Part shown: piece after piece, positions 11,588-43,918 of the stretch | Numbering within the stretch: the first letter of the stretch is position 1 | Layout: each line of letters begins with the position of its first letter | NCBI RefSeq assembly: GCF_004123295.1 | Contig: NZ_SDMK01000001.1 | Coordinates: forward strand, 434,001 to 498,000 | DNA length: 64,000 nucleotides | Source: Silvibacterium dinghuense | GTDB lineage: Bacteria; Acidobacteriota; Terriglobia; Terriglobales; Acidobacteriaceae | Direction: 5' to 3' | Notes under the pieces: model-generated | The model's input: the letters and a program-made list of their open reading frames with translations, nothing else | Told to the model about the DNA's origin: nothing | Database searches by the model: none | Made by a program: the position numbers and the translations under genes

Positions 11588-11820
11588 GTGGTTCGACTCC
11601 TGTTTCTACTCTATGCCGAATGCAACAGGAAATTGCCGGACGGATATCGGCAAAGGCAACAGGGTTTCCGACTTCGACAACGGGCAAAAAAGGAACAGGC
11701 CGGCATCCTCGGTTCAATTTCGGAACCGCGCATTACGAAAGTCTGGTTGCAGTTCCGAATGCCAGCCTGCCGGAGTGCAGACACGGCTATGCTGAGGCAG
11801 CTCTCCATAAGGATGAAGTC

Positions 11821-12894
11821 ATGCCTGAGTCCCTCTTCAGCCGAGCCGGCTCGATGCACGGTCATGCTGACCGGCCCAGGGAGGCCGACATCACGGTTGT
11901 AATCCCGACGCATCAGCGTCCGGAGCTTCTGCGGCGGGCTCTCATGAGCGTCCTGCGACAGAGCTACAGCGCACTGGAGGTCATCGTGGTCTCCGACGGA
12001 GACGACGGCTCGGATGCACAGGCCATTGTCGATGAGTTCCGCGACAGACGGCTGCGTGTCGTGCCTCTATGGCTGCGAAGAGGCGGCGCACAGGCGCGCA
12101 ACATTGGCGTCCGAATGGCAAGAACGCCCTGGATCGCCTTCCTTGACGATGACGATGAGTGGCACCCGGAAAAACTCGCACGACAGATGCAGGCCACCCG
12201 GACGATGCAGGTGGAATTTCCCGTGATCTCTTCGCAGAGCCTGGTGCAATCGAACACCCGCGCATGGATATCTCCCGAACGCGCCTTTCAGGCAGACGAA
12301 GCGATCAGCGATTTCCTCTTCTGCCGCAGCCGCTTTATCGATGGAGCCCAGTACATGCAGACCTCGTCTCTGCTGGTGCCGCAGGAGCTGCTGTTAAAGA
12401 TTCCATTCCGCCCTCATCTGCGGCGCCACCAGGACTGGGACTGGCTTCTGCGTGCGGCCAAGCAGCCAGGAGTAGCATTCCACATGGTGGCGCAGCCGCT
12501 GAGTATCTTCCATGTGGAGGAGGGCAGAAACAGCGTCGGTCGAGGACAGGACTGGGAGTTCTCGCACGCCTGGGCGACAGAGATGCGGCACGGATTCACT
12601 CCCCGGGCCTATTCCTTCTTCCTGGCCACCGAATGCGTCTCCCGCGCCGTCAAGAGCCGGGCCGGCTGGAAGGCCTACGCGCCGCTGATCCGCGATTACT
12701 TCCTGTCCGGACGGCCCACCGTGCGCTCCCTGCTGACGCTGGCCGGCTTTCTCTTCGTACCGCCTCCGGTACAGACGCGGATACGGCGCGCAGCCCGTAC
12801 GCGGCTGCAGCCATCCGAATCCAGCACAGAAAATGCCATGACGCCTCAGGAGATCGGCAGCCTCGGCTCTCCTGCCATCACCACGCACAGCTAA
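11821..12894 (+). CDS. Family 2 glycosyltransferase (first gene of polysaccharide cluster)
   Basis: A 357-residue GT-A fold enzyme. ITVVIPTHQRPELL (residues 24-37) starts the nucleotide-binding half, the DXD-type metal site is FLDDDDEWHPEKL (108-120), and HQDWDW in the middle is the usual acceptor-side ED/WD motif. It should add a sugar from a nucleotide donor to the cytoplasmic lipid-linked repeat unit; donor and linkage cannot be read. The ATG at 11821 follows AAGGATG at good spacing; an open frame extends back to 11566 but overlaps the start of the transglycosylase. The SIS gene follows after 14 bases. Confidence 0.85.
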   Translation: MPESLFSRAGSMHGHADRPREADITVVIPTHQRPELLRRALMSVLRQSYSALEVIVVSDGDDGSDAQAIVDEFRDRRLRVVPLWLRRGGAQARNIGVRMARTPWIAFLDDDDEWHPEKLARQMQATRTMQVEFPVISSQSLVQSNTRAWISPERAFQADEAISDFLFCRSRFIDGAQYMQTSSLLVPQELLLKIPFRPHLRRHQDWDWLLRAAKQPGVAFHMVAQPLSIFHVEEGRNSVGRGQDWEFSHAWATEMRHGFTPRAYSFFLATECVSRAVKSRAGWKAYAPLIRDYFLSGRPTVRSLLTLAGFLFVPPPVQTRIRRAARTRLQPSESSTENAMTPQEIGSLGSPAITTHS

Positions 12895-12908
12895 CGGAGA
12901 CACGAGTT

Positions 12909-13553
12909 ATGTCCATGAACGGCTATACGGAGCAATATCTTGAGGAGGCGAAGCAGACACTCTCACTGCTGAGCTTCCAGGCCATCGAGCAGGTTGTAGA
13001 AATTCTCAGCCGCACGCGGGATCGCGGAGGAAGGATCTTCTTTCTCGGCGTGGGAGGTAGCGCCGCCAATGCCAGCCATGCCGCGGCAGACTTCCGCAAG
13101 ATCTGCGGCATCGAATCCTATTCCGTTTCCGACAATACGGCCGAGTTGACCGCCCGCAGCAACGACGAGAGCTGGCTGCGCGCCTACGCGGGTTGGCTGG
13201 AGGCCAGCCGCCTGCGCTCCACAGACACGCTCTTCGTTCTCTCCGTCGGCGGAGGCGATGAGGAAAAAGGGCTGAGCCTGAACCTGATCGAGGCTCTGCG
13301 GCTCGGCCAGCGGCGTGGCGCAAATATCGTCGGCATTGTCGGACGTCAGGGCGGCTATACCGCCCAGGTCGCCGATGCTTTCGTGCTGGTGCCTACGGTT
13401 GCGGAGAGCTCCGTAACCGCCCACGCCGAATCCGCCCAGGGGACGCTATGGCACCTCATGGTGAACCACCCGCGATTGAAACAGAACGAGCCGCAGTGGG
13501 AGAAAACATGCATGGCCTGCAGCGAGCGATCTTTCTCGATCGCGACGGCGTAA
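12909..13553 (+). CDS. SIS-domain phosphosugar isomerase, GmhA-like
   Basis: A 214-residue single SIS domain protein resembling D-sedoheptulose-7-phosphate isomerase GmhA. The phosphate loop is GVGGSAANAS (47-56). H57 sits where GmhA has its first zinc ligand, but the second ligand Glu appears to be D61, and the C-terminal Gln/His pair appears as E174 and H182, so the metal site is altered. Context supports a heptose role: the next gene, overlapping by 46 bases, is a GmhB-like phosphatase and other heptose genes lie at 17982-19711. GGAG precedes the ATG at 12909. It could instead be a related ketose-aldose isomerase. Confidence 0.75.
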   Translation: MSMNGYTEQYLEEAKQTLSLLSFQAIEQVVEILSRTRDRGGRIFFLGVGGSAANASHAAADFRKICGIESYSVSDNTAELTARSNDESWLRAYAGWLEASRLRSTDTLFVLSVGGGDEEKGLSLNLIEALRLGQRRGANIVGIVGRQGGYTAQVADAFVLVPTVAESSVTAHAESAQGTLWHLMVNHPRLKQNEPQWEKTCMACSERSFSIATA

Positions 13554-14170
13554 TCAATCGCAATATCTGGAATCCTGACACAGGCGCCTTCGAGGCGCCT
13601 CTCTCGGCATCGCAGTTCATACTGATTCCCGGCGTCATCGATGCGCTTCGATGCCTGGCACGAGCCGGTTATCTGCTGTTTCTCGTCTCCAATCAGCCGA
13701 ACTACGCCAAGGGCAAAGCCGGACTGAATGATCCGGCGGCGATCCACCGCACGTTCCTCAAGCGCATGCAGCGCGCAGATATCTCTTTTACCGGCTGCTT
13801 TTACTGCTTTCATCATCCGGATGGACGCATCAGAGATTACACCGGCTGCTGTCTCTGCCGGAAACCATCTCCCTATTTCCTGCGGATGGCCAGCCGCAGC
13901 TTCGACGTGGACCTGCCTGGCTCCTGGATGATCGGCGATCGAGCAACCGATATTGTCTGCGGCCAGGCAGCGGGTACACATACCGCGTGGGTCGGAGAAG
14001 CGTGGCCGGAAGCACCGCGCGCGGATATCCGGGCGCGCGATCTGCGCGAAGCCGCGCAGATCATTCTCTACCGGGACACCGCGCCAGGTTATGGCGCGGC
14101 AGGCCGCGGCAAGGGCGAACGACGATTGCCATCCGCCAGAACGAGCACTTCGGACTCTCCATTGCGCTGA
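13508..14170 (+). CDS. HAD phosphatase, D-glycero-D-manno-heptose-1,7-bisphosphate 7-phosphatase-like
   Basis: A 220-residue HAD phosphatase of the GmhB/HisB-N type. Catalytic DRDGVIN is at residues 11-17, the second motif is VSNQP (60-64) and the Asp motif is GDRATD (143-148). The zinc loop diagnostic of GmhB is present: CFHH (100-103), then CLC with RKP (115-120). In the heptose pathway it removes the 7-phosphate. It starts inside the SIS gene (overlap 13508-13553) after GGGAG, indicating coupled translation. The last 82 bases overlap the convergent transaldolase; the C-terminal tail after about residue 190 is low in family similarity and may reflect that overlap. Confidence 0.85.
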   Translation: MHGLQRAIFLDRDGVINRNIWNPDTGAFEAPLSASQFILIPGVIDALRCLARAGYLLFLVSNQPNYAKGKAGLNDPAAIHRTFLKRMQRADISFTGCFYCFHHPDGRIRDYTGCCLCRKPSPYFLRMASRSFDVDLPGSWMIGDRATDIVCGQAAGTHTAWVGEAWPEAPRADIRARDLREAAQIILYRDTAPGYGAAGRGKGERRLPSARTSTSDSPLR

Positions 14171-14949
14171 ATGGCATGCATGGGAGTTTCTACTCCCATC
14201 GCGAGAGGTTGAGGCGGAAAGAGATCTGCGGTGTCGATCGCATAGGCCGCAGCCTGCGCATCACGGAAAAACATCTCGACGGTTTCCAGTGAATACTGGT
14301 CCAGATTCTTGCCTGCAAGAGAAAGCTTGGCGAGCAGATCCGGAGGCATGGTAATGATGTCGCATCCGGCCTCCTCGGCCTGATAGAAGTTGAGCACCTC
14401 GCGCGGGCTGGCCCAGAGGAGCTGTGCGCTCGAATGCGCATGGAGCCATTCGGCAGCACGCCGCATGACTGGCACCGGATTCACTCCAGTGTCGGCAATC
14501 CGCCCGGCAAATATAGAGACAATTGCCGGGGCTTGCGCCGGAAGTATCTCGAGAATTCGTTCGACTTGCTCCAGGGTAAGCACCGCCGTCACGTTGACGG
14601 TGATGCCTGCAACGGCAAGGCGCTGCATCAATTCCCCGAGAAAGCGGCCTGAGCGGTCCGTAACAGGAATCTTCACATTGACATTTGGAGACCAGCGGGC
14701 GATGGCATAGGCCTGCGCCTCCATCTCCGCTTCGTCATCGGCAAAGACCTCGAATGAAACAGGAAGATGAGGAACAAGATGGAGGAAGGTTCGCGCGAAC
14801 GCCTCATAGTCTGTGATCCCCGCCTTACGCATCAGCGTGGGATTGGTCGTAAAGCCTTGCACAGTGGGATTTGCAGCGTAAGCGCGGACGCTGTCGAGAT
14901 CAGCGCCATCGCAGAAGATACGGATATGGTTCTGGCCGGATGGGGGCAT
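14089..14949 (-). CDS. Transaldolase-family enzyme
   Basis: A 286-residue TIM-barrel aldolase of the short transaldolase / fructose-6-phosphate aldolase group. FTTNPTLMRKAGI (33-45) is the strand-2 signature and K93 in NVKIPVT is the Schiff-base lysine; NVTAVLTLEQ and SIFAGRIADTG follow as in the family. It transfers a dihydroxyacetone unit, which would give sedoheptulose-7-phosphate, the substrate of GmhA. GGAGG lies six bases before the ATG at 14949. It heads no other gene downstream and overlaps the HAD gene by 82 bases tail to tail. Its place inside a heptose-type polysaccharide cluster suggests a dedicated precursor supply; this is inference. Confidence 0.82.
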   Translation of the reverse strand: MPPSGQNHIRIFCDGADLDSVRAYAANPTVQGFTTNPTLMRKAGITDYEAFARTFLHLVPHLPVSFEVFADDEAEMEAQAYAIARWSPNVNVKIPVTDRSGRFLGELMQRLAVAGITVNVTAVLTLEQVERILEILPAQAPAIVSIFAGRIADTGVNPVPVMRRAAEWLHAHSSAQLLWASPREVLNFYQAEEAGCDIITMPPDLLAKLSLAGKNLDQYSLETVEMFFRDAQAAAYAIDTADLFPPQPLAMGVETPMHAIQRNGESEVLVLADGNRRSPLPRPAAP

Positions 14950-14981
14950 GATGATCCTCCAGTGAGTGTGCATGAGAGCAG

Positions 14982-15809
14982 TCAGGCCGGGACAGGCGGC
15001 CGCGTGCGGGATGCGATCCGCTGCTTCCAGAACTGGATCAGAACGATGGCTGCGAAGCGCGGATTGCCGAGCAAGTAGCGCCGCCAGAGACGGCGCGGCT
15101 CGCGGATAAGACGATAAAGCCATTCGAGCCCAAGACGGTGCGTCCATCGCGGCGCGCGACGGCGAAGTCCTGCGCAGGTATCGAGCGCAGCTCCGACGCT
15201 GATCGCAGCGCCGATCGGCAGCGACGGGCAATGCTCCAGCATCCAGAGTTCCTGCCGCGGCGCTCCAAACGCGACACAGAGCAGATCAGGATGCGCCTGC
15301 GCGATCATTCTGCGGATCAGGCTCAGTTCTCCGGGGTCCTCATCGAACCCGAGTGGAGGACAGTAGCAACCTGCGATCTTCAGTTCGACATAGCGGCGCT
15401 GCAAATTTGCAGCAGCGGCAGCAGCGGCTCCGGGAAGTCCTCCGAGAAAGAAGACGTTTCTCCCCTGCGCCGCACAGGCGGCACAAAGCGCGATCATCAG
15501 ATCGCCTCCCGTCACACGTTCCGGCATGCGGCCGCCAAGCAACCTCGCCGCCCACACCACGGAAATACCATCTGCAACGCAGAGATCCGCTGCGTGCAAG
15601 GCAGCGGCAAATCCCGCGTGTTTTTCGGCCAGCTGTATTAGCTGCGCATTCGGCCCCATAATCAGCATTGGCGGGCGCTGTCTTCGGCCAAGTACGGTCA
15701 TTACCCAGGCGACCGCCCCCGCCAGCGTAAAGCTGTCGACGCAGACATTCCCCACCAGCACGCGCGGCGGCCGCACGGCATCCGGGGAAGACGCCGTCAT
15801 CATGGCCAT
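14982..15809 (-). CDS. WecG/TagA/CpsF family (GT26) glycosyltransferase
   Basis: A 275-residue enzyme of the GT26 fold. Family landmarks are NVCVDSFTLAGAV near residue 20, MGPNAQLI (51-58), LHAADLCVADGISVVWAA, ERVTGGDLM, FFLGG, and GAPRQELWM with the catalytic-region acidic and Arg residues. Members transfer N-acetylmannosamine(-uronate) or similar sugars to undecaprenyl-PP-linked acceptors at the membrane; the basic, hydrophobic C-terminal tail (RRLWRRYLLGN...) fits membrane attachment. Its ATG overlaps the stop of the preceding family 2 gene by ten bases, and GGAG lies close upstream, so the two are translated together. Confidence 0.9.
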   Translation of the reverse strand: MAMMTASSPDAVRPPRVLVGNVCVDSFTLAGAVAWVMTVLGRRQRPPMLIMGPNAQLIQLAEKHAGFAAALHAADLCVADGISVVWAARLLGGRMPERVTGGDLMIALCAACAAQGRNVFFLGGLPGAAAAAAANLQRRYVELKIAGCYCPPLGFDEDPGELSLIRRMIAQAHPDLLCVAFGAPRQELWMLEHCPSLPIGAAISVGAALDTCAGLRRRAPRWTHRLGLEWLYRLIREPRRLWRRYLLGNPRFAAIVLIQFWKQRIASRTRPPVPA

Positions 15810-16774
15810 AACAGCTCCGAGCGCTCCAGAAAGAAGTTTGGGGGAAGGCCGTTCGCAATGCGTGCAGAAGAAAAATACTCATCGCGGATACGACGCCATA
15901 AATAGCGGGGAGACGCCACACAGGATGCGCCCAGATGCCGTCCCGCATTCAGAAAGCTGCGCTGCGCCAGGGACATATTGCAGGCGCGCAACCGCTCTTT
16001 GGCCTCCCGCTCACCGCGCGGAAGCATCTGCACAAGCGCCGCACGAATGGCTTCGATAGGACGAGGTTGACGCCGCAAAAGATGAGAGAGCAGAAGATAC
16101 TGGACATAAAGCCCCGCGATCATCTGCTCGCCGAGATGGCGCGAGCTGACGCTCTCCGCATTCTGGCGAAAGCCGACAAGCACCTCCGGGATGCAGCAGA
16201 TATCGGCATGCAGAGCCATGCGCCACCACAGATCGGCATCTTCGTTATGCAGCCCGACGCGGTAGCCGCCGCAGGCAAGCGTGCGGCGCACATGGAGCAC
16301 TGCGCTCGAATGGCAGATAGCGAGAAGATATCCCGAGCGCACAATAGCACGCAGCTCTTCCGGAGAGCCACGTGAACTGCGGAAAAAGCCGACGGCCCTG
16401 CCTCGCGGATGATAGTTCGCATAGGAATAGAACATGCCTGCATCGGGATAACTGCGAATGGCTTCCCGCAAAACCGCGATGCGATGCGGATGCGCGATAT
16501 CGTCAGCATCCTGACGCACCAGCCACGGCGTCTCACATTCGAGGAGCATCCGATTGAGCGTATACGCAAGGCCCTGCCCAGGCTGCTCGATCACATGCAG
16601 ACGCGAATCCCGCAGAGAGTGGAGATACGCAGCACTGCTATCTTCACCGCCATCCACGATGGCAAGAATGCGAAAATCCGCATCGCTCTGAGCGAGCAGA
16701 CTATCCATACACTCTGCGAGCAACGGCATCGCATTGCGCACAGGCAGACCGATGGTTAACAGGTCGCTCTGCAT
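15800..16774 (-). CDS. Family 2 glycosyltransferase
   Basis: A 324-residue GT-A enzyme. LLTIGLPVRNAMPLLAECMDSLL opens the nucleotide-binding domain, VRQDADDIAHPHR carries the DXD-like metal site (DADD), and the LHNEDADLWWRM segment is the acceptor-site motif. It should add a sugar during repeat-unit assembly. The ATG at 16774 follows AGGGG seven bases upstream and starts directly before the domain; an ATG at 16846 would add 24 residues. It is the first gene of a three-gene minus-strand unit (GT2, WecG-like, transaldolase) that is divergent from the epimerase at 16982. Confidence 0.85.
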   Translation of the reverse strand: MQSDLLTIGLPVRNAMPLLAECMDSLLAQSDADFRILAIVDGGEDSSAAYLHSLRDSRLHVIEQPGQGLAYTLNRMLLECETPWLVRQDADDIAHPHRIAVLREAIRSYPDAGMFYSYANYHPRGRAVGFFRSSRGSPEELRAIVRSGYLLAICHSSAVLHVRRTLACGGYRVGLHNEDADLWWRMALHADICCIPEVLVGFRQNAESVSSRHLGEQMIAGLYVQYLLLSHLLRRQPRPIEAIRAALVQMLPRGEREAKERLRACNMSLAQRSFLNAGRHLGASCVASPRYLWRRIRDEYFSSARIANGLPPNFFLERSELLWP

Positions 16775-16981
16775 TCTCGCCCCTTTCGTAAAGACAGCTT
16801 TGGCCAGATGCTTGAAGCGCGTCAACGCAGAAATCTGTAACTCCATAACCGACGTAATCTGTCATTCCCGAATCGCGCATGCTACTTTCACCAGCGTTGC
16901 CTCACATGTGCAGTATTTCCGACTTATTGCACAAACTTCGACGAATCTAGAAAACGCCAAAACCGGGACGAGGTAACGGAT

Positions 16982-18004
16982 ATGCTTCACGCAGCCACCG
17001 AACCAGGATCATGGATCGAGGCTCTCCCGATCCACGAACAGCGCCGCTACTGCATCATCGGCGGCGCGGGATTCATCGGCAGCCACTTCGCTGACCGCCT
17101 GATGGAAGACGACCGCACCGAAGCCGTTACGGTGCTGGATAACTTCCGCACCGGCCGTCACCGTCACCTGCGAAAGCATCTCTCGGGAGCCGACCCGCGC
17201 TTTCGCATGGTGCATGGAGACGTGCACGACCGGCAGAAGCTGATGGAGGCAATGGAGGGCCACACGCTGGTCCTTCACCTAGCGTCGAACGCAGATATCG
17301 CGCGTGCCGCTATTGAGCCTGAGATCGATTTTCGCGAAGGTACGGAGCTTACGCAGCACATCCTCGAAGCGGCACGCGCCTGCAACGTAAAGCGCGTGCT
17401 CTATGCCTCCGGGAGCGGCGTCTATGGCGATGCTGGCGAACAAATCCTGCGAGAGGAGGATGGTCCCCGAGCGCCGATCTCAACCTATGGAGCAAGCAAG
17501 GTAGCTGGGGAGGCTCTGATCGCCAGCTATTGCGCGATGTTCGACATGACAGCTTGTGTCTTCCGCTTCGCTAACGTAGTCGGCGCGCGGCAGACACACG
17601 GCGTAGGTTACGACTTCCTGCAGCGCCTGCAGCATGATCCGGCGCGCCTTCGTGTTCTGGGCGACGGACGCCAGAAGAAGAGCTACATTCACGTCTCCGA
17701 TGTCGTCGAGGCCGTGCTCCATGCCGAATCTCGATCGAAGCAGGCATACGCGATCTACAACGTAGCGACAGAAGACACCATTACGGTCACGGACATCGTG
17801 GGATTTGCGTCCGAAGCTCTGGGCCTTCGGCCCATGATCGAATACAGCGGCGGCGATCGCGGCTGGAAGGGAGATGTGCCCATCGTTCGACTGGATTGTG
17901 CGAAGCTGCGGGCACTGGGCTGGGCACCTCGCTACAACAGCCGCGATGCCATACGGCTATCGCTCGAGGAGATGCTGAGAGATGAGCATGTGGCGCTTGT
18001 CTGA
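16982..18004 (+). CDS. NAD-dependent epimerase/dehydratase (extended SDR)
   Basis: A 340-residue extended short-chain dehydrogenase of the nucleotide-sugar type. The NAD-binding glycine motif GGAGFIGSH is at 27-35, the catalytic set is S143 and Y169xxxK173 (YGASK), and the substrate part keeps RFANVVGARQ and SYIHVSDVVEA. It resembles UDP-glucose 4-epimerase and GDP-sugar dehydratases; which sugar it acts on cannot be read. As the first gene of a seven-gene plus-strand run that continues with the HddC- and HddA-like genes, a GDP-heptose substrate is plausible. GAGG lies eight bases before the ATG. It overlaps the next gene by 23 bases. Confidence 0.85.
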   Translation: MLHAATEPGSWIEALPIHEQRRYCIIGGAGFIGSHFADRLMEDDRTEAVTVLDNFRTGRHRHLRKHLSGADPRFRMVHGDVHDRQKLMEAMEGHTLVLHLASNADIARAAIEPEIDFREGTELTQHILEAARACNVKRVLYASGSGVYGDAGEQILREEDGPRAPISTYGASKVAGEALIASYCAMFDMTACVFRFANVVGARQTHGVGYDFLQRLQHDPARLRVLGDGRQKKSYIHVSDVVEAVLHAESRSKQAYAIYNVATEDTITVTDIVGFASEALGLRPMIEYSGGDRGWKGDVPIVRLDCAKLRALGWAPRYNSRDAIRLSLEEMLRDEHVALV

Positions 18005-18728
18005 ATGCCTCCCGCCGGTAGCGATCCTGGCCGGTGGGCTGGGAACCCGGATGCGTCCCACCACGGAGTGGGTGCCGAAGGTGCTTCTGCCCGTAGCCGG
18101 CGAACCATTCCTGGGGCACCAGTTGCATCTGCTCGCGCAGCGCGGCGTGAGCGATGTCGTGCTGTGCTGTGGGTATCTCGCCGAGCAGATTGCACGCTAT
18201 GCCGGGGACGGTAGCGACTTCGGTCTGCACCTACATTATTCCCGCGACGGCGCATCGCCGCTGGGCACTGGAGGCGCGCTGCGCCATGCCCTGCCGATGC
18301 TAGGCGAAGAGTTTTTTGTTCTTTACGGTGACAGCTATCTGGAAGTCGATCTGGCCGAGGTCTATTGCGCCTTCGTGCAAAGCGGACTGCCTGCGCTGAT
18401 GACCACGCTTCTCAATCGGAGCCGCTGGGGCGCGAACAATGTCCGGATGCGCGGCGGCCTGGTCACGCAGTACGGTTGCGATTCTTCTCCGGGGATGGAG
18501 TACATCGACTATGGGCTGAGCCTGTTTCGCGCCGAGGTCTTCGCAAGCTGGCCGGATGACGCTGCATTTCCTCTTACCGAGGTGCAAAGCATGCTGGCCG
18601 CGGGGAAACGCATGGCGGCGTTCGAGGTTTCACAGCGTTTCTACGAGATTGGCTCGCCGAGCGGACTGGCCGAGACAGAAGCCTACCTCCGCTCACAGCC
18701 GCGCAGGCTCCGGGAGACAACGCCGTGA
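17982..18728 (+). CDS. Sugar-1-phosphate nucleotidyltransferase, HddC-like
   Basis: A 248-residue nucleotidyltransferase. The nucleotide-binding signature LAGGLGTRMRP is at residues 17-27, KVLLPVAGEPFL carries the second conserved Lys, and LYGDSYLEVD provides the metal-binding Asp. It resembles D-glycero-alpha-D-manno-heptose-1-phosphate guanylyltransferase (HddC) and lies directly before an HddA-like kinase, as in known GDP-heptose clusters. The assignment rests on that pairing; mannose- or glucose-1-phosphate transferases share the same fold. The start overlaps the epimerase end by 23 bases, and the stop overlaps the next GTG start by four. Confidence 0.78.
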   Translation: MSMWRLSECLPPVAILAGGLGTRMRPTTEWVPKVLLPVAGEPFLGHQLHLLAQRGVSDVVLCCGYLAEQIARYAGDGSDFGLHLHYSRDGASPLGTGGALRHALPMLGEEFFVLYGDSYLEVDLAEVYCAFVQSGLPALMTTLLNRSRWGANNVRMRGGLVTQYGCDSSPGMEYIDYGLSLFRAEVFASWPDDAAFPLTEVQSMLAAGKRMAAFEVSQRFYEIGSPSGLAETEAYLRSQPRRLRETTP

Positions 18729-19711
18729 TTATGACACGGACACCGTTACGTATTTCGATCGGCGGAGGAGGAACGGATCTTCCGTCTTACTACCGGCGCT
18801 TCGAGGGATTCGTCATTTCCGCAGCGATCAACAAGCATGTCTACCTTACGGCAAATCGAAGCTTCACCCATGGCTATTTGCTGCGTTACTCCATCAATGA
18901 ACATGTCTCACATACCTCTGAGATTCGCCATCCTCTGCTGCGCCATGCCATCGAGATGCAGGAAGTCAGGGACCCGCTGGAGATCGTAAGCATAGCAGAC
19001 GTGCCGGCAGGAACGGGGCTGGGCTCCTCAGGCGCATTCGTCGTCGGCCTCGTGCACCTACTGCATGCCCATAAGTGCGAGCCGGTCACTCCGGAGCAAT
19101 TGGCTCGCGAGGCCATCGAGATCGAGATGGAGCGCCTGGGCGAACCAGTAGGCAAGCAGGACCAGTACATTGCCGCGTATGGCGGCCTGCTCTGCCAGCA
19201 CTATCACCAGGACGACACGGTCACACTCGAGCCCCTGTCCATGCGTGCAGATACGCTACGCGATTTTTGCGATTCCCTAATGCTGTTCTTTGCCGGAGAG
19301 ACGCGGCAGGCTTCGGTCATCCTGGAAGAGCAGCGTAAGCGAACTGAAGAAGACGATCCGGCGATGCTCGAGGGGCTGCACTTCGCACGGCAACTCGGAT
19401 TGGAGATTCGCCACATACTCGAAGCCGGAGATGTGGCTGCGTTTGGCCCACTGATGCACCAGCACTGGGAGCGGAAACGAAACCGGAGCCGGGGCATGAG
19501 CAACGCGCGGATCGATGGCCTCTATGAGATGGCTCGCCGCAGCGGCGGTGCGCTAGGCGGCAAGCTGGTGGGTGCCGGCGGCTGTGGCTTCCTGCTCTTC
19601 CAGACCTTCGACCGGCGGCGTCTCCGCAACTGCATGCGAGAAGCGGGAGTCGAGGAAATGGACTTCCAGTTCGATTTCGACGGATCCGTCGTGCACACGA
19701 GAAGCGTATGA
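18725..19711 (+). CDS. GHMP kinase, D-glycero-D-manno-heptose-7-phosphate kinase (HddA)-like
   Basis: A 328-residue GHMP kinase. TPLRISIGGGGTDLPSY (6-22) is the N-terminal signature shared by HddA and FKP-type sugar kinases, PAGTGLGSSGA (94-104) is the ATP-binding motif 2, and KLVGAGGCGFLL near residue 285 is motif 3. HddA phosphorylates D-glycero-D-manno-heptose-7-phosphate at C1, after which GmhB and HddC act; both partners are in this cluster. The start is GTG at 18725 in a GTGA overlap with the preceding gene, with an ATG two codons later. It overlaps the Wzc-like gene by four bases. Confidence 0.85.
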   Translation: MIMTRTPLRISIGGGGTDLPSYYRRFEGFVISAAINKHVYLTANRSFTHGYLLRYSINEHVSHTSEIRHPLLRHAIEMQEVRDPLEIVSIADVPAGTGLGSSGAFVVGLVHLLHAHKCEPVTPEQLAREAIEIEMERLGEPVGKQDQYIAAYGGLLCQHYHQDDTVTLEPLSMRADTLRDFCDSLMLFFAGETRQASVILEEQRKRTEEDDPAMLEGLHFARQLGLEIRHILEAGDVAAFGPLMHQHWERKRNRSRGMSNARIDGLYEMARRSGGALGGKLVGAGGCGFLLFQTFDRRRLRNCMREAGVEEMDFQFDFDGSVVHTRSV

Positions 19712-22035
19712 ATGAGAAAGCATTGCTGGCGGGCCGCCCGCTGGAGTGGACAGACTTGCTCACCCGGCCGCGGAGAGAGTGGACAATGCTGGACCTGTGG
19801 CAGGTCATGCGCAGGCGCAGGCGATGGGTCCTGTGGCCGACAGGCGCCGCCCTTCTGCTGGCAACACTCTATTGGCTGCTGGCGACGCCACGCTTCCAGG
19901 CGAACGGAGAAATCGAAGTCCAGAGAGAATCCGCCGCTGCTTTTGGCCTCGATAATTCGGTAAACGGCGAGCCTTCCCAGGCAGAGGGAGATTCACTGGA
20001 CTACAGCATGACGCTCGAGACGGAATCGAAAATCCTCGAGTCACCCACGCTGGCACTCAGGGTCATGCACGATCTCGAGCTGGAGACGACGCATGACTAC
20101 TTCCCGCAGCGGACGACAGGATGGCATCTGCCTGCATGGTTGTTCTTCTGGCGACAGCCTCTGGAGCCGCTGAACATCCGCCTGGAAGATGCTCCGAACC
20201 GGCGCTATGTCGCGTTGAAGATCTTCGAACATCACCTCAAGGTGAAGGCGGAACCGGGTACACGCCTGATCGATGTGAGCTATGCAGACCCCAACCCGTA
20301 TCTGGCGACTGCAGTGGTCAACCGCTTGTTATCCGCGCTGACGGAGTACACCTATCAAGCACGTTTTCAGGCCACCGCGCAGGCCTCCGACTGGCTCGCC
20401 GGCCAACTCAAGGGTCTGCGCGCCCAGACACAGGCACTTGAAGACCGTGCCAGTCGCCTGCAGCGGGATACGGGAATTTATGGGGATGATGCAGGGCACA
20501 ACATCGTATTGGATCGGCTCACGACCCTGAACCAACGGCTCGCCGCAGCAGAGACAAACCGCATTCTGATGCAAGCCATCGCGCAGGCTGCGGAGAGCGG
20601 AGATCCCGAGCTTCTACCCGCGCTGAGCGGAGGAGGCGGCAGTGGCATGCCCGGGTATGGACCGCAGCTGGCAGTGATCCAGGAACTGCGCATGCGTGAG
20701 GCCGCACTCGAAGCAGAGATCGCAGAAAACGATGCGCGGTATGGTCCCGCCCATCCGCATACCGCTGAGTTGCAGGCAGAGCTTACCGGCGTGCAGCGAT
20801 CGATCCGGGCAGAAGCAGAGCGCATGGGACATCGCGCACGGGTCGATCTCGATATCGCGCAGAACACCGAGAATGCCGCCCGCGACGCCTTCGAAAAACA
20901 GCGCTCCACCGCCGATGCGATGAGCAATCGCACCGTCGCCTATCAACTGGCGCGGCAGGAAGCCGACAGCAGCCGCAATGTCTATGAAGGCCTGCTCGCG
21001 AAGCTCAAACAGGCTGGGGTGCTCGAAGGCCTGCGCTCGACCAACCTCACCGTAGTAGCGCCGGCACAGGTTCCTCCGACACATCGGCCCAGCAGCCCGC
21101 GCATGCTGCTTGTCTACGCATGCGCCCTCATCGGCGGACTGTTCCTGGGCTGCACCGGAGGCTGGACAGCCGAACGCTTCGATCACTCGGTACGCTCCCT
21201 TGAGCAGCTCGAAGAGGAAGTCGGCTCTCCTCTGCTCGGCATCCTGCCAGAATTCTCTCGGCGTTTGAAGACGCGCCGTCGAGCCTCCTGGAGAGAAATC
21301 CTGATGCGCAGAGAATCGGTCTCGACTTCGCCCTTGTTCATGAGCAGAACAGGCATCGCAGACCAGGCGCGACAGGAGATCTTTGTCGAAGCACTATGCT
21401 CTCTACGAACATCCCTGCTGCGGCTGCGCGATGGAGACAGCTCGCAGGTGGTATTAATCACCAGCGCAGTAGCCGGCGAAGGCAAGAGTACGATTGCCGC
21501 CAATCTGGCCGGAGTGCTGGCGCAATCCGGCGAGCGAGTGTTGCTCGTCGATGCCGATCTGCGACGGCCGGGCATTTACCACGAGCTCGGCATGCCCGCC
21601 GGCCTTGGATTGAGACATGCACTGCGCAGCAAGAGCGAGCCCGCCATCCAGAAATTCCCCGGTCTTCCCAGCCTCTCCGTACTGTGCGGAAGCACGGCTG
21701 CAAGTATGCCGGCAGAACTGCTGGCGTCGGCAAAGATGCAGGAACTGCTCCGCGAATGGCGCCGGAATTACGACGTTGTGCTACTTGACAGCCCTCCGAT
21801 TCTGCCGGCAACCGATCCGGCGCTGCTGGCGCAGGCGAGCGATGTCACCATCCTCGTGGCACGGCACGGCGTTACCACCTGCCAGGCCGTGCATCGCTCC
21901 ATGGCCCTGCTCCGCGAGCAGATTCCGGAGACCGGCACATTGCGCGTGGTGCTGAACGGAATCTCCAAAGACAGCCAGGACTTTCACGATTACTACGGTG
22001 ACAACAAGACCTATTCGAGACGGAAAACGGCATAA
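19708..22035 (+). CDS. Polysaccharide co-polymerase / tyrosine autokinase (Wzc-like)
   Basis: A 775-residue inner-membrane protein. TM1 (about 40-58) and TM2 (about 466-485) flank a Wzz-type periplasmic domain with a long coiled coil (about 225-440); the proline motif before TM2 (PPTHRPSSP) is typical. The cytoplasmic BY-kinase part has Walker A AGEGKSTIA (589-597), Walker A' VLLVDADLRRP (611-621) and Walker B VVLLDSPP. The C terminus holds only three tyrosines (DYYGDNKTY), a short cluster compared with E. coli Wzc. It sets chain length and works with the Wza-like protein encoded next. Confidence 0.92.
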   Translation: MNEKALLAGRPLEWTDLLTRPRREWTMLDLWQVMRRRRRWVLWPTGAALLLATLYWLLATPRFQANGEIEVQRESAAAFGLDNSVNGEPSQAEGDSLDYSMTLETESKILESPTLALRVMHDLELETTHDYFPQRTTGWHLPAWLFFWRQPLEPLNIRLEDAPNRRYVALKIFEHHLKVKAEPGTRLIDVSYADPNPYLATAVVNRLLSALTEYTYQARFQATAQASDWLAGQLKGLRAQTQALEDRASRLQRDTGIYGDDAGHNIVLDRLTTLNQRLAAAETNRILMQAIAQAAESGDPELLPALSGGGGSGMPGYGPQLAVIQELRMREAALEAEIAENDARYGPAHPHTAELQAELTGVQRSIRAEAERMGHRARVDLDIAQNTENAARDAFEKQRSTADAMSNRTVAYQLARQEADSSRNVYEGLLAKLKQAGVLEGLRSTNLTVVAPAQVPPTHRPSSPRMLLVYACALIGGLFLGCTGGWTAERFDHSVRSLEQLEEEVGSPLLGILPEFSRRLKTRRRASWREILMRRESVSTSPLFMSRTGIADQARQEIFVEALCSLRTSLLRLRDGDSSQVVLITSAVAGEGKSTIAANLAGVLAQSGERVLLVDADLRRPGIYHELGMPAGLGLRHALRSKSEPAIQKFPGLPSLSVLCGSTAASMPAELLASAKMQELLREWRRNYDVVLLDSPPILPATDPALLAQASDVTILVARHGVTTCQAVHRSMALLREQIPETGTLRVVLNGISKDSQDFHDYYGDNKTYSRRKTA

Positions 22036-22053
22036 GCAGAGATGGAGAACAAC

Positions 22054-22986
22054 ATGAGAACAGTACTGGCCATACTGCTGGCAGCGTGCCTGTCTCTGGC
22101 GGAGAATGTTGCTACAGCTCAGAATGCTCCCGCGCAGGCCGCATCGGATATTCCGCATTCCTCCGCCTCACAGGAGAGCCTGAGAATTGGTCCAGGCGAT
22201 CTGCTGGCCATCACGGTATTGCGCGAACCGGAGATGGATCGGAAAGTGCGCGTGCGCGACTCAGGCGAGATCGACGTACCGCTCGCTGGACAAATCCAGG
22301 TGATGGGTCTCAGCCCGGACGAAGCCGGCACAGCGATTGCGCAGCGGCTTGAGGAAGCAGGCTATCTCCGTCACCCTGAAGTCTCGGTGCTGGTTCAGGA
22401 ATATGCGACGCAGCAGGTGGCTGTGCTCGGTCAGGTCGCACACCCAGGAACCTATCTCCTCGAATCGCCGCGCACGCTCCTCGATGTGCTGGCAATGGCC
22501 GGCGGACTGACCGACTCCGCAGACCGGCATCTGATGATCGAGCATAGCGATGGGCGGACGCCGGCGCAGGTGTTTCTTTCCAACCAGGCAGCCGATGCGC
22601 TGGAGGCAAATGTGCAGATCCGTGCCGGTGACCGCATCATCGTACCCAAAGCCGGACTGATCTACGTCCTCGGAGACGTTGGCCGCCCGGGCGGATACCT
22701 GATGCAGAATGAATCGCGGATGACACTGCTCCAGGCCGTAGCTCTGGCCGGCGGTGCAAACCATACCGCGTCGGAAGAGCACGTGCGCCTGGTGCGCAAT
22801 CATGACGGCGACATCGACGAGCAGGAGCTTCCACTCAAAGAGATCGAACGGGGACAGGTCCCCGATCTTCTGCTGCAGGCAAACGATGTCATCTACGTGC
22901 CATTTCACCTGGGCAAGCACATCCTGATGGGGGCAACGGCAATCGTGGCGGCAGCCAGTTCGGCCGCGGTCTATGCCGGTCATTAG
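22054..22986 (+). CDS. Polysaccharide export protein (Wza-like, SLBB domains)
   Basis: A 310-residue secreted protein. The signal peptide is MRTVLAILLAACLSLAENVATAQ. A Poly_export domain (about 40-115, beginning LRIGPGDLLAITV) is followed by two SLBB domains (about 120-175 and 205-265), each with the VAVLGQVAHPGTY / IYVLGDVGRPGGY repeat. A hydrophobic C-terminal helix (GATAIVAAASSAAVYA) follows. It should form the periplasm and outer-membrane channel. No lipobox Cys is evident, unlike E. coli Wza. The ATG at 22054 is preferred over 22042 because GGAGAAC sits six bases before it. Confidence 0.9.
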   Translation: MRTVLAILLAACLSLAENVATAQNAPAQAASDIPHSSASQESLRIGPGDLLAITVLREPEMDRKVRVRDSGEIDVPLAGQIQVMGLSPDEAGTAIAQRLEEAGYLRHPEVSVLVQEYATQQVAVLGQVAHPGTYLLESPRTLLDVLAMAGGLTDSADRHLMIEHSDGRTPAQVFLSNQAADALEANVQIRAGDRIIVPKAGLIYVLGDVGRPGGYLMQNESRMTLLQAVALAGGANHTASEEHVRLVRNHDGDIDEQELPLKEIERGQVPDLLLQANDVIYVPFHLGKHILMGATAIVAAASSAAVYAGH

Positions 22987-24313
22987 GCCCAACGCTGCAG
23001 ATACCTCTCCTGGGGTCGAGGGGATTTTGTGTGCCACGCTGCTGGCTTTTTTTGCCGTACAGGGAGCTATACCCTTCATTGCGCCCAACCAGGCGCTGGA
23101 AACAACCGGTCAGGCCGCTTCAGGACTCATGTTCTGGGGCGGAATTCTGAGCCAGACAGCGGTATATGGAAGCATCGCCGCGCTGCTCCTCCTCGACCTG
23201 CCGCGCATCCTGCGCTGGCTCCGCGCGATGCGCTGGACACTCGGCCTTGCGCTGCTGGCCATTGCTTCTTCCGTGTGGTCCCAGTTTCCCTCCTATACTT
23301 TGCGCCGTTCTATCCCCTTTGCCATGGCCGGGCTGTTCGGATTGTGGTTTGCGCTTCGCTATCCGGTGAAGCGGCAACTCTCGATCCTGCGCATGAGCAT
23401 GCTCGGACTGGCTTTGGCCACGATCATCATGGTCATCCTGTTTCCCGGACTGGCACTGGATCGCTCTACCGGTCATGTCACCGATTGGCAAGGCATTTTC
23501 ACGTCGAAGAATGCCTGCGGACGCATCATGGTTCTGGCCACAGCCATTGTCCTCGGCGAAAACCGTGGAGTTCTGCGAAGCCTGCCTCCGATGCTGCTCT
23601 TTCTTTTTGTAATCGCCATGAGCGGCTCACGCGGAGCGTGGGTCATCGAAGGCGGCGTACTGACCGTGTACGGTGGAATCTGCCTGATGCTGGCGAGCAC
23701 CCGTCGCAGCCGGATTGTGCTCGGCATGGCACTCGCATGCTTCACGATCACAGCAGCCGCCGTGCTCATGACCCATCTGAAAGCAGCGATGGCCCTCCTC
23801 GGACGAGACACCACCCTGAGCGGAAGAACCCAAATCTGGGCACAAGTATGGCCATTCGTCATCACACATCCGTTACTCGGATGGGGTTACGCAGGTTTCT
23901 GGAAGGGGCTGGAGGGCGAAGCCTTTCGAGTCGTAGCTGCTGTGCGCTTTATCGTCTATCATGCCCATAATGGTTTTCTGGAGATCGGGCTGGAACTGGG
24001 AGCCGTTGGACTAGCAATCTTTCTCTGCAGCTATGCACGCGCCTGGCGGATACTATGGCTGAGGATGAGAGAGGCAAGGGACAGGCACCTCATCTGGTTT
24101 CTACTTCTGCTCCTGTTAATTGGCCTCTATGATCTGGATGAGAACACGCTTCTCATTTACAACGGGTTATTCTGGGTCGTTTACGTTTCAGTCTTGTGTA
24201 ATCTGGAGTTCCTGCGACACGAAGATCGATTGGCTGCCGAACTTTCCCTCCAGCACGCAGTCACATCAAGAATGGCGCACGGCGCGCTGCAAGAGAGCCG
24301 CAACTGGGATTGA
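22973..24313 (+). CDS. O-antigen ligase / polymerase family membrane protein
   Basis: A 446-residue polytopic membrane protein with about ten to twelve helices. The Wzy_C/WaaL signature is present in the second half: a large periplasmic loop with GRTQIWAQVWPFV and HPLLGWGYAGF, then VYHAHNGFLEIGLELG, the HxxHN motif of O-antigen ligases and ExoQ-type polymerases. In a cluster with Wza and Wzc but no lipid A core genes it is more likely the repeat-unit polymerase than a WaaL ligase. It overlaps the Wza-like gene by 14 bases. Confidence 0.87.
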   Translation: MPVIRPNAADTSPGVEGILCATLLAFFAVQGAIPFIAPNQALETTGQAASGLMFWGGILSQTAVYGSIAALLLLDLPRILRWLRAMRWTLGLALLAIASSVWSQFPSYTLRRSIPFAMAGLFGLWFALRYPVKRQLSILRMSMLGLALATIIMVILFPGLALDRSTGHVTDWQGIFTSKNACGRIMVLATAIVLGENRGVLRSLPPMLLFLFVIAMSGSRGAWVIEGGVLTVYGGICLMLASTRRSRIVLGMALACFTITAAAVLMTHLKAAMALLGRDTTLSGRTQIWAQVWPFVITHPLLGWGYAGFWKGLEGEAFRVVAAVRFIVYHAHNGFLEIGLELGAVGLAIFLCSYARAWRILWLRMREARDRHLIWFLLLLLLIGLYDLDENTLLIYNGLFWVVYVSVLCNLEFLRHEDRLAAELSLQHAVTSRMAHGALQESRNWD

Positions 24314-25458
24314 ATTTGAAACGCGTTCTCATCTACAGAGCAGACCTGCTTCCGCCGTCCGAGACCTTTATTACGGGCCAAACCGCTTCTTTGCAGCGAT
24401 ACACACCCTGGTTTGCTGGCCTGCGCCGTTATACCAAGGGACTTACCCTGGACGCTTCGAGGGTACTTTCAGTTACCAAAGGTAATAACTTTCAGGACAA
24501 GCTTATTCGGCGCGCCTATCTGCTCAGCCGCATCTCTCCCAGCTTTCATCGAAAGGTGCAGCAGATCCGGCCCTCACTCATCCATGCTCACTTTGCACCG
24601 GATGGGAGCCTTGCGCTCAAGGTGCAAAAGCTGCTGGATGTACCGCTGATCGTGACATTGCACGGTTTCGATGTCACCAAAGGCGATGAAGCCTTTCGCG
24701 ACTCTCTCTTCGGACGCATGTACCTGAGCCGGCGAGCGGATCTCTGGCAGCAGGCATCCTTATTTGTCTGCGTCTCCGAACATATCCGGCAGATGGCCCT
24801 CGAGCGGGGCTTCCCGGAAGACAAGCTGCTCGTGCATCGGATCGGCATCGACCTGACCCGCTTCCTTCCGGCTGAAAAGCAGGAGCCCATTGTGCTCTTC
24901 GTCGGCCGCATGGTTGAGAAAAAAGGCGCGATTCATCTGGTTCGGGCGATGCAGAGTGTACAGGCGCACCTGCCCCATGCGCGACTCGTGCTGCTTGGCG
25001 ATGGTCCCCTGAAACCGGAACTGGAAGAAGAGGCGCGAAAGCTAGGCGTGAAAGCCGAATTCCTTGGCATGCAGCCGCACAATGAGGTCATCAGCTGGAT
25101 GCGCCGGGCTCAGGTACTCGCGGCGCCAAGTATCGTGGCGCGCAGCGGCGACTCGGAAGGACTGCCCACCGTGATGTGCGAGGCTCAAGCCATGGGATTG
25201 CCCGTAGTTTCTTTCCGGGGACCAGGAGTGGATGAAGCAGTCGTGCACGGAGAAACCGCTCTGCTGGCCGCGCCTGGCGATGATCGTGAACTTGGCGAGG
25301 CCATCACCCGGCTGCTCAGCGATCCGCAACTGCTCACACAATTCGGCGAAGCAGGCCAGCGGAGAGCCGCGGAATTCTTCGATATCCGGCATCAGACTGC
25401 CCTGCTCGAAGACATCTACGATCGTGTTGTGGATGCGGCTACGCGGCGGATCGCCTGA
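24310..25458 (+). CDS. Family 4 glycosyltransferase
   Basis: A 382-residue GT-B enzyme. The N-terminal acceptor domain has HAHFAPDGSLAL and TLHGFDV; the C-terminal nucleotide-binding domain has VLFVGRMVEKKG, LLGDGPLKPELEE and the EX7E-type segment EGLPTVMCEAQAMGLPVV. GT4 enzymes are retaining and often add mannose, glucose or galactose. The start is TTG at 24310 within an overlap with the previous stop; a second in-frame TTG lies at 24316. Last gene of the seven-gene export unit; it ends six bases from the convergent hemW gene with no clear terminator. Confidence 0.88.
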   Translation: MNLKRVLIYRADLLPPSETFITGQTASLQRYTPWFAGLRRYTKGLTLDASRVLSVTKGNNFQDKLIRRAYLLSRISPSFHRKVQQIRPSLIHAHFAPDGSLALKVQKLLDVPLIVTLHGFDVTKGDEAFRDSLFGRMYLSRRADLWQQASLFVCVSEHIRQMALERGFPEDKLLVHRIGIDLTRFLPAEKQEPIVLFVGRMVEKKGAIHLVRAMQSVQAHLPHARLVLLGDGPLKPELEEEARKLGVKAEFLGMQPHNEVISWMRRAQVLAAPSIVARSGDSEGLPTVMCEAQAMGLPVVSFRGPGVDEAVVHGETALLAAPGDDRELGEAITRLLSDPQLLTQFGEAGQRRAAEFFDIRHQTALLEDIYDRVVDAATRRIA

Positions 25459-42754: not shown

Positions 42755-43918
42755 CTACAAAAGCCTGCGCACCTCGCGGGCTATCTGCGCCTCTTCCTCG
42801 CTCCCCACGATGAGAACCTCGATCGGCTCTCCCTCTTCCGAAATCACCTTCGCGGCGTCGCGATTGCGGGCATCGTCAAGTTGCACGCCAAGCCATGCGA
42901 GCTTATCTGCGACATTGGCGCGAACTGAAGCGCTGTGCTCACCGATACCGCCGGCAAAGATGAGCTGATCGAGCCCGCCCAGCGAGACGGCAAAGGCCGC
43001 GACCGTACGCGCAACGGCGCGGCAGAAGATCTCGATGGCAAGAGCAGCCTCATGGCTTCCCTTTCCCGCAGCCTCGTCCAGCTTGCGCATATCGCTGTCT
43101 CCGCCAAGAGCTTTCAGCCCGGAGTCGTGATTCAGCAGCGACTCGAGCGCCTGGTCGTCGAGATGGTGAACACGCATGAGGTACAGCAGCACACCGGGAT
43201 CGAGATCACCGGTGCGCGTCCCCATGGGAATGCCGCCCGTAGGAGTCATCCCCATGCTCGTGTCGACGGACTTGCCATCGCGCACGGCGCAGAGGCTGGC
43301 TCCATTGCCGAGGTGAGCGATCACCGCGCGCGGCTTCAGCGCGCCACCCAGCGTGTGCACGATGGAGGCATACGACAATCCATGGAAGCCGTACCGCCGC
43401 ACGCCTTCCGTGACGAACGTCTCCGGAAGCGGATAGTGCCATGCCTCTTCCGGCATCGTCTGGTGAAAAGCCGTGTCGAAGCAGGCGAACTGCGGGATGC
43501 CTGGATAAACGCTCTGGGCCGCGCGGATCAACTCGATCGAGGTAGGAATATGCAGCGGAGCAAAGTGCACGGCCGCGTCGAGCGTGGCCAGCACCTTGTC
43601 GTCAATACGAGCATGGTCGCGGAGCTTCGCACCGCCATGCACCACACGATGTCCCACGGCACCAGGCTTTGGCTCGTGTAGCTGGTTCAGCGTCTCGGTC
43701 AAATGCTCGAGAGCCTCACGCTGCGAAGCGTACTTGCGGTCTTCGTGGTGGAGCAGCTTTCCTGCTCCGTCGAATACCTCGAGCTTGCCGCCGTCTTTTC
43801 CAATACCCTCGGCCGATCCACGCAGAAGCGGCCTCTCCTCGCCATTTTCAAGCGAGAAGAGACCGAACTTCAGCGTGGAAGAACCACTGTTGATGGCAAG
43901 GATAGGGACATCGCTCAT
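42755..43918 (-). CDS. ackA: Acetate kinase
   Basis: A 387-residue ASKHA-fold kinase that interconverts acetyl phosphate + ADP and acetate + ATP. Landmarks in order: [16 protein letters not shown] (5-20), [18 protein letters not shown] with the catalytic Asp, [46 protein letters not shown], and FAGGIGEHS. It overlaps the phosphoketolase stop by four bases (ATGA), so the two form one translated unit: phosphoketolase makes acetyl phosphate, AckA recovers ATP from it. No separate promoter is expected. Confidence 0.95.

Follow-up and report, generated by a model that had tools for sequence, protein, structure and literature searches.

A transaldolase-linked sugar-nucleotide module in an acidobacterial exopolysaccharide cluster with likeness to the lincosamide octose pathway

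A cluster for exopolysaccharide synthesis was analyzed in a window of 64,000 nucleotides from Silvibacterium dinghuense (contig NZ_SDMK01000001.1, positions 434,001 to 498,000), of which it occupies positions 11,821 to 25,458. It encodes six putative sugar enzymes: a SIS isomerase, a HAD phosphatase, a transaldolase, a short-chain dehydrogenase/reductase (SDR), a nucleotidyltransferase and a GHMP kinase. Several of these are more like the octose set of lincomycin biosynthesis than the heptose set, so the polysaccharide may hold a rare eight-carbon sugar. Based on the sequence comparisons given below, the cluster probably, though far from certainly, makes a GDP (guanosine diphosphate)-activated eight-carbon aldose (octose) for the exopolysaccharide by the lincosamide route. 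The likeness of the module to the lincosamide octose pathway is clear for the isomerase and good for the nucleotidyltransferase, the gene content and the gene order.

The six genes had been located and assigned to families in a first-pass annotation made from the sequence alone, and the open reading frames (ORFs) and concordant Pfam families bear these assignments out:

12909..13553, plus strand: SIS sugar-phosphate isomerase, LmbN-like (proposed octulose-8-phosphate isomerase); PF13580, with two inserts common to the LmbN type
13508..14170, plus strand: HAD-IIIA phosphatase of the GmhB/LmbK kind (proposed terminal-phosphate phosphatase); TIGR01656, 98.5 bits on fragment 13520-14125, cut-off 84
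14089..14949, minus strand: transaldolase of the TIGR02134 type with complete catalytic residues; TIGR02134, 305.5 bits, conserved residues and predicted fold
16982..18004, plus strand: GalE-like SDR (LmbM-like; proposed to epimerise the activated sugar); PF01370, best solved match 3ehe
17982..18728, plus strand: sugar-1-phosphate nucleotidyltransferase, LmbO-like; tree of 19 module and four LmbO rows, 97/92
18725..19711, plus strand: GHMP sugar kinase of the HddA/LmbP kind; NF049969, 148 bits, cut-off 600, with tree and site table

In the proposed pathway, the transaldolase would transfer a dihydroxyacetone unit from fructose-6-phosphate (or sedoheptulose-7-phosphate) onto ribose-5-phosphate, giving octulose-8-phosphate, which the SIS enzyme would convert to octose-8-phosphate. 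The GHMP kinase would phosphorylate this sugar at C1, the HAD phosphatase would remove the 8-phosphate and the nucleotidyltransferase would form a nucleoside diphosphate octose, probably GDP-octose. The SDR would epimerise the activated octose, and the neighbouring glycosyltransferases, Wzc, Wza and Wzy would assemble and export the polymer. The comparisons establish the genes with their families, the linkage across many records and the affinities of the SIS enzyme and the nucleotidyltransferase; from these we infer the ribose-5-phosphate acceptor, the carbon number, the nucleotide, the stereochemistry and the polymer.

The isomerase was aligned, with residues numbered as in E. coli GmhA, in 61 rows from transaldolase loci (the window included), five LmbN-type rows and 26 GmhA rows, the last comprising 22 from relatives of the window genome, that genome's own enzyme, E. 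coli GmhA and two plasmid rows (one partial). Between G122 and S124 there are 7 residues in 59 of the 61 locus rows and 7 (four rows) or 10 (one row) in the LmbN type, versus a single residue in all 26 GmhA rows; between P163 and Q172 there are 11 residues in 59/61 locus rows and 5/5 LmbN-type rows, versus 7 or 8 in 26/26 GmhA rows. As counted in the alignment, both inserts (6 and 4 residues) occur in 59/61 locus rows, 5/5 LmbN-type rows and 0/26 GmhA rows; the two locus rows without them, L098_1017 and L056_1288, come from further, GmhA-like genes. T120 is replaced by Val in 59/61 locus rows and 5/5 of the LmbN type (0/26 GmhA), and position 121 is Gly in 60/61 locus rows, His in 5/5 LmbN-type and Ser in 26/26 GmhA rows. 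E65D and Q172E are also common to locus and LmbN-type rows, yet were found in one or two heptose-type rows. D94, S124 and H180 are retained in all rows. S119, S121 and S124 are presumably the phosphate ligands in GmhA, and the changes around them suggest a phosphate site rebuilt for a longer chain. In a tree with 21 of the 59 module rows, module and LmbN sequences stood apart from GmhA (support 91). The AF2 (AlphaFold2) model of the isomerase, with a mean predicted local distance difference test score (pLDDT) of 92, has a GmhA-like fold (18-26% identity); the models of the isomerase and the transaldolase confirm their folds and do not distinguish heptose from octose. The window SIS protein thus clearly has the LmbN form and not that of GmhA, and is a putative octulose-8-phosphate isomerase.

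In the nucleotidyltransferase tree, a branch of 97/92 separated 19 module and four LmbO rows from seven others, namely HddC-type enzymes, MurU and two cyanobacterial rows. L127 (too short) and the unrelated rows L053, L054 and L072 were left out; an earlier tree with the latter three, which came close to rejecting module plus LmbO as one clade (p 0.086) and did not reject module plus HddC (p 0.63), was rebuilt without them. The putative window enzyme groups well with LmbO, apart from HddC.

The linkage of the transaldolase to the sugar genes was investigated in a scan of genome contigs that used only the transaldolase alignment and took no account of neighbouring genes; it gave at least 584 relatives among at least 589 pattern matches. 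The best 80 were kept and, together with the window and three plasmid loci, made 84 loci, many of them short. They carry organism labels from record titles (several are metagenome-assembled genomes with doubtful names), and by these titles the module spans many phyla. SIS was found in 59 of the 84 loci, HAD in 70, the nucleotidyltransferase in 26 and the kinase in 20. Thirty-four of the best 80 loci were well flanked (8 kb or more to either side), and in these genes were counted within up to 10 kb on each side. SIS was present in 26, HAD in 27, and one or both in 30. An activation arm was likewise identified in 30, consisting of GHMP kinase plus nucleotidyltransferase in 9 and of an HldE-like fusion in 21 (PF01467 and PF00294 in the one representative scanned); kinase and fusion co-occurred in 0/34, and L101, L102, L107 and L118 had no arm. 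An LmbM-like SDR was present in 29/34 of these loci, an LmbZ-like oxidoreductase in 22/34, an LmbL-like dehydrogenase in 21/34 and a DegT-type aminotransferase of the LmbS cluster in 5/34. In the relatives, transaldolase and module genes often share one strand.

The association was also apparent in other collections. A transaldolase copy of at least 49% identity was found in 14 of 61 genomes searched, the genome's own included. Kinase matches were obtained in 88 plasmid records; among the matches listed, five kinases had at least 49.7% identity and the others at most 39.3%, and the same five records held the nearest transaldolases (at least 51.8%). Heptose-type loci on Lawsonia plasmid 1 and an R. 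leguminosarum plasmid encode SIS, HAD and kinase, and the transaldolase is absent from the stretches shown of both. The transaldolase is an integral member of the sugar module. The first-pass annotation had called a dedicated transaldolase unusual, a description that fails because the enzyme is a regular part of the module across record titles of many phyla.

Gene content and order were compared with the lincosamide pathway. In PMC4351081 the lmbR transaldolase, lmbN C8 isomerase, lmbK C8 phosphatase and lmbO C8 guanylyltransferase are given as confirmed and the functions of lmbP, lmbM, lmbL, lmbZ and lmbS as predicted. LmbR couples ribose-5-phosphate with fructose-6-phosphate or sedoheptulose-7-phosphate (PMC5854111), and GDP-octose is converted to GDP-lincosamide via LmbM, LmbL, CcbZ and CcbS (PMC12945683). 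Of 392 genomes assigned to Streptomyces (the genus being judged from the chaplin genes of G087), five encode a transaldolase relative with an E value of 1e-8 or better, in each case beside kinase, nucleotidyltransferase and SIS genes, with SDR and HAD in the same 20-kb stretch in four and in the adjoining stretch in the fifth. In L126-L129 the genes run K-L-M-N-Z-P-O-S-R, the order of the table in PMC4351081. In L125 with L148 the lmb order is kept, Z and P being separated by other genes (the L gene lying outside the comparison). The order of the PMC4351081 table is, we assume, the genomic order of the lmb genes. Lincosamide markers were present in two of the five Streptomyces clusters, and the lincosamide-like label of L125 and L126 rests on them: gamma-glutamyltranspeptidase, rRNA dimethylase and an LmbV-like protein in L126 with L150, and a chorismate-binding enzyme and an AMP (adenosine monophosphate) ligase, as in celesticetin, in L125.

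L127-L129 form a third kind of Streptomyces octose-type cluster. L127 encodes class II tRNA-synthetase-like and aminoglycoside-adenylyltransferase-like proteins, with related genes by clustering in L128 and L129; the product is perhaps an undescribed octose compound. Among 45 LmbL-like rows, 33 have Asn and nine have Thr (among them the four Streptomyces rows of the set) in the column that we take to be that of the catalytic Cys; two have Cys and one has a gap. Such a loss would fit oxidation of a secondary alcohol, e.g. at C6 of a sugar of at least seven carbons, and does not separate heptose from octose.

A number of observations, several of them on the transaldolase and the kinase, weigh against the octose. 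The window transaldolase exceeds the cut-off of the NCBIfam equivalog TIGR02134 (305.5 vs 281.95 bits), its AF2 model shows a transaldolase fold (mean pLDDT 80, the C-terminus being disordered), and D7, N29, E60, K86, N112, T114, S138, R143, S174 and R176 (trimmed numbering) are invariant in 83/83 module rows, K86 presumably being the Schiff-base lysine and E60 the TAL-type Glu. Position 60 is Gln in 5/5 LmbR-type rows versus Glu in the module. The identity of the window enzyme is 44% to the Staphylococcus type versus 30-38% to the LmbR type, and in the tree 31 of the 83 module rows fell together with five Staphylococcus-type rows (support 97), with the LmbR type outside as the next group; a clade of module and LmbR transaldolases was not rejected (p 0.62). 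On these comparisons the window enzyme is judged not to be an LmbR ortholog, and its acceptor cannot be read off the sequence. The kinase is 41-43% identical to two HddA-like enzymes and 31-37% to the LmbP type; in an unrooted tree its clade shared a 97 split with the HddA type, away from LmbP and ten other module rows, and at 36 positions separating LmbP from HddA the module sided with HddA at 24 and with LmbP at 12. Among these 12 are Gly103, found in 17/19 module and 5/5 LmbP-type rows (Ser in 5/5 of the HddA type), and His247, found in 19/19 module, 5/5 LmbP-type and 0/5 HddA-type rows. Overall the window kinase appears to lean to HddA, for which the long branches of the LmbP-type rows may account in part. 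The kinase tree alone was rejected as arbiter: its three groups have no root and cannot decide, the lean seen being to HddA.

Further points, not all in the same direction, come from the remaining genes. In the HAD tree (27 module rows), the position of LmbK from the lincosamide-like clusters L126 and L148 speaks for the octose, since it falls within the module phosphatases (99/95 with three of them); a weak fork (72/37) puts the window group beside GmhB, as placed by the careful tree, a quick tree having looked cleaner. The window phosphatase is 35-39% identical to the LmbK type and 33-38% to the GmhB type, and the SDR is 40.7-42.4% identical to the LmbM type and 41.8% to the SDR of a heptose-type cluster; phosphatase and SDR do not decide between the two sugars. 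The cyanobacterial nucleotidyltransferases L097 and L103, themselves transaldolase-linked, side with HddC/MurU, and a clade of module and HddC was not rejected (p 0.16). The activation arm of the window is the rarer one (9/34 vs 21/34 HldE-like). No tblastn match at 1e-4 to LmbL-, LmbZ- or LmbS-like genes was obtained within the window, where the search was made. The TIGR02134-type transaldolase of a Streptomyces plasmid (L035) has no such cluster around it.

The product proposed in the first-pass annotation was GDP-heptose, with a dedicated transaldolase joining fructose-6-phosphate and erythrose-4-phosphate to sedoheptulose-7-phosphate before GmhA-, HddA-, GmhB- and HddC-like steps. This is rather unlikely, and it has several points in its favour. 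The window transaldolase is closest to the Staphylococcus type, thought to act in the pentose phosphate pathway; the kinase is nearer HddA, the HAD enzyme is not separable from GmhB, the other arm in relatives belongs to the HldE heptose enzyme family, and the folds match the heptose set. The heptose models themselves were all missed: SIS scored 46.7 bits against TIGR00441 (GmhA, cut-off 209), the HAD fragment 93.5 against TIGR00213 (GmhB, 149.6), the nucleotidyltransferase 86 against NF049965 (HddC, 300) and the kinase 148 against NF049969 (HddA, 600), which is still its best-scoring model; the best model for the nucleotidyltransferase was MurU (114.9 bits, cut-off 250). These cut-offs are strict and may exclude true members, since none of the GmhA found in 41 related genomes reaches 209, the control enzymes scoring 132-205 bits. 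What argues against a heptose is an SIS enzyme without the GmhA form, a nucleotidyltransferase apart from HddC and the two plasmid clusters that combine SIS, HAD and GHMP kinase without a transaldolase in the stretches shown. The genome also has a second transaldolase elsewhere (308.6 bits to PF00923) and, on another contig, a GmhA gene (186.9 bits) adjoining HldE (380.7 bits, over cut-off). Of the earlier proposal, a nucleotide-activated higher sugar with an integral transaldolase supplying the starting ketose phosphate is upheld, and the SDR may well modify the activated sugar as suggested; the heptose itself is weakened by the LmbN form of the isomerase, the grouping with LmbO and the genome's other enzymes, and keeps some probability because the kinase evidence leans to HddA.

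It is improbable that a different aldose phosphate is the acceptor, leading to a heptose or octose of another configuration. The module transaldolases are distinct from the LmbR type and do not reveal their acceptor, which would allow it; nothing positive points to another acceptor, and the LmbN and LmbO affinities favour the lincosamide octose. Least probable by far is a transaldolase of central metabolism lying in the cluster by accident. In the window the gene is on the minus strand, in one run with two glycosyltransferases converging on the HAD gene, so the sugar enzymes here are not one operon, and TIGR02134-type enzymes of Lactobacillus, Ligilactobacillus, Staphylococcus, Treponema and the Streptomyces plasmid sit outside such clusters. 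Against accident stand the linkage kept in 30/34 loci picked neighbour-blind, often on one strand, and the second transaldolase of the genome. The SIS and HAD genes overlap by 46 bp, and the convergent HAD and transaldolase genes by 82 bp. The transaldolases outside such modules (L035, L036, L037, L038 and L144) have phosphotransferase system genes, transporters or unrelated genes as neighbours.

The octose reading leads to a wider proposal, which is offered tentatively: bacteria of many phyla may build linear octoses into surface polysaccharides (perhaps longer sugars where an HldE arm is paired with transketolase-like genes), and lincosamides may have taken their sugar pathway from an older polysaccharide module. 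To our knowledge, the linear-octose pathway is known only from antibiotic biosynthesis. If the proposal is true, it would be a widespread route to surface polysaccharides, linear octoses may have been missed so far and would be worth seeking there, many SIS enzymes annotated as phosphoheptose isomerase would act on a substrate other than the annotated one, and ideas on where the lincosamide sugar came from could be put to the test. Branched octoses with a two-carbon branch at C-4 are already described from Gram-negative polysaccharides in PMC4753412, so an octose in a polysaccharide would not itself be new; the route would be.

The HldE-arm operons (L091:8737-20722 and similar) have the order SIS-HAD-transaldolase-SDR-SDR-HldE-LmbZ-LmbL-SDR-methyltransferase-SDR, Pfam having been scanned for L091 only. 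Ten of the 34 well-flanked loci have, in HldE-arm operons, a gene from the cluster of transketolase N-halves. As a guess only, those with a transketolase pair might make longer or branched sugars such as bradyrhizose, a C10 sugar. The bradyrhizose genes are called unknown in PMC4743980. The Coxiella tags CBU0674-0678 comprise a phosphoheptose isomerase, two epimerases and a reversed HldE-like protein, in a published order that resembles the HldE-arm operon (PMC5843353); L118 was noted together with them. The Coxiella O-antigen sugars named in that article, virenose and dihydrohydroxystreptose, are not octoses, which speaks against the whole superfamily being octose-forming.

The other genes of the cluster were predicted to function in polymer assembly and export:

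11821..12894, plus strand: family 2 glycosyltransferase, lying upstream of SIS; PF00535, 7e-26 on the longer ORF 11566-12894
14982..15809, minus strand: WecG/TagA/CpsF glycosyltransferase; PF03808, 8e-59
15800..16846, minus strand: glycosyltransferase family 2; PF00535, 1e-16
19708..22035, plus strand: Wzz/BY-kinase chain-length protein (Wzc); PF02706, PF13614
22042..22986, plus strand: Wza-type polysaccharide export protein; PF02563, SLBB
22973..24313, plus strand: Wzy_C polymerase/ligase; PF04932, 2e-18
24310..25458, plus strand: glycosyltransferase group 1; PF00534, 3e-35

Elsewhere in the window, a phosphoketolase of the xylulose-5-phosphate/fructose-6-phosphate type (43915-46353, minus strand; PF09364, PF09363, PF03894) uses the same sugar phosphates.

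Among known systems, the TIGR02134 enzyme of the Staphylococcus type shares with the window protein a score over the cut-off and complete catalytic residues, and stands apart whereas the window transaldolase is tied to a sugar-nucleotide module. With the GDP-D-glycero-D-manno-heptose pathway (GmhA, HddA, GmhB, HddC) the window has the superfamilies and the logic of the steps in common, and its kinase is closest to HddA; it differs in that two reference stretches of that pathway have no transaldolase, GmhA has no such inserts and the window enzymes stay below the heptose model cut-offs. The lincosamide (lincomycin/celesticetin) GDP-octose route LmbR-LmbN-LmbP-LmbK-LmbO-LmbM differs from the window set in that the latter lies in an acidobacterial exopolysaccharide cluster, has a transaldolase nearer the Staphylococcus type and a kinase nearer HddA, and has no LmbL-, LmbZ- or LmbS-like gene in the window. 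The two share all six enzyme families, the SIS inserts and the affinity of the nucleotidyltransferase, and relatives of the window carry the LmbL- and LmbZ-like genes as well.

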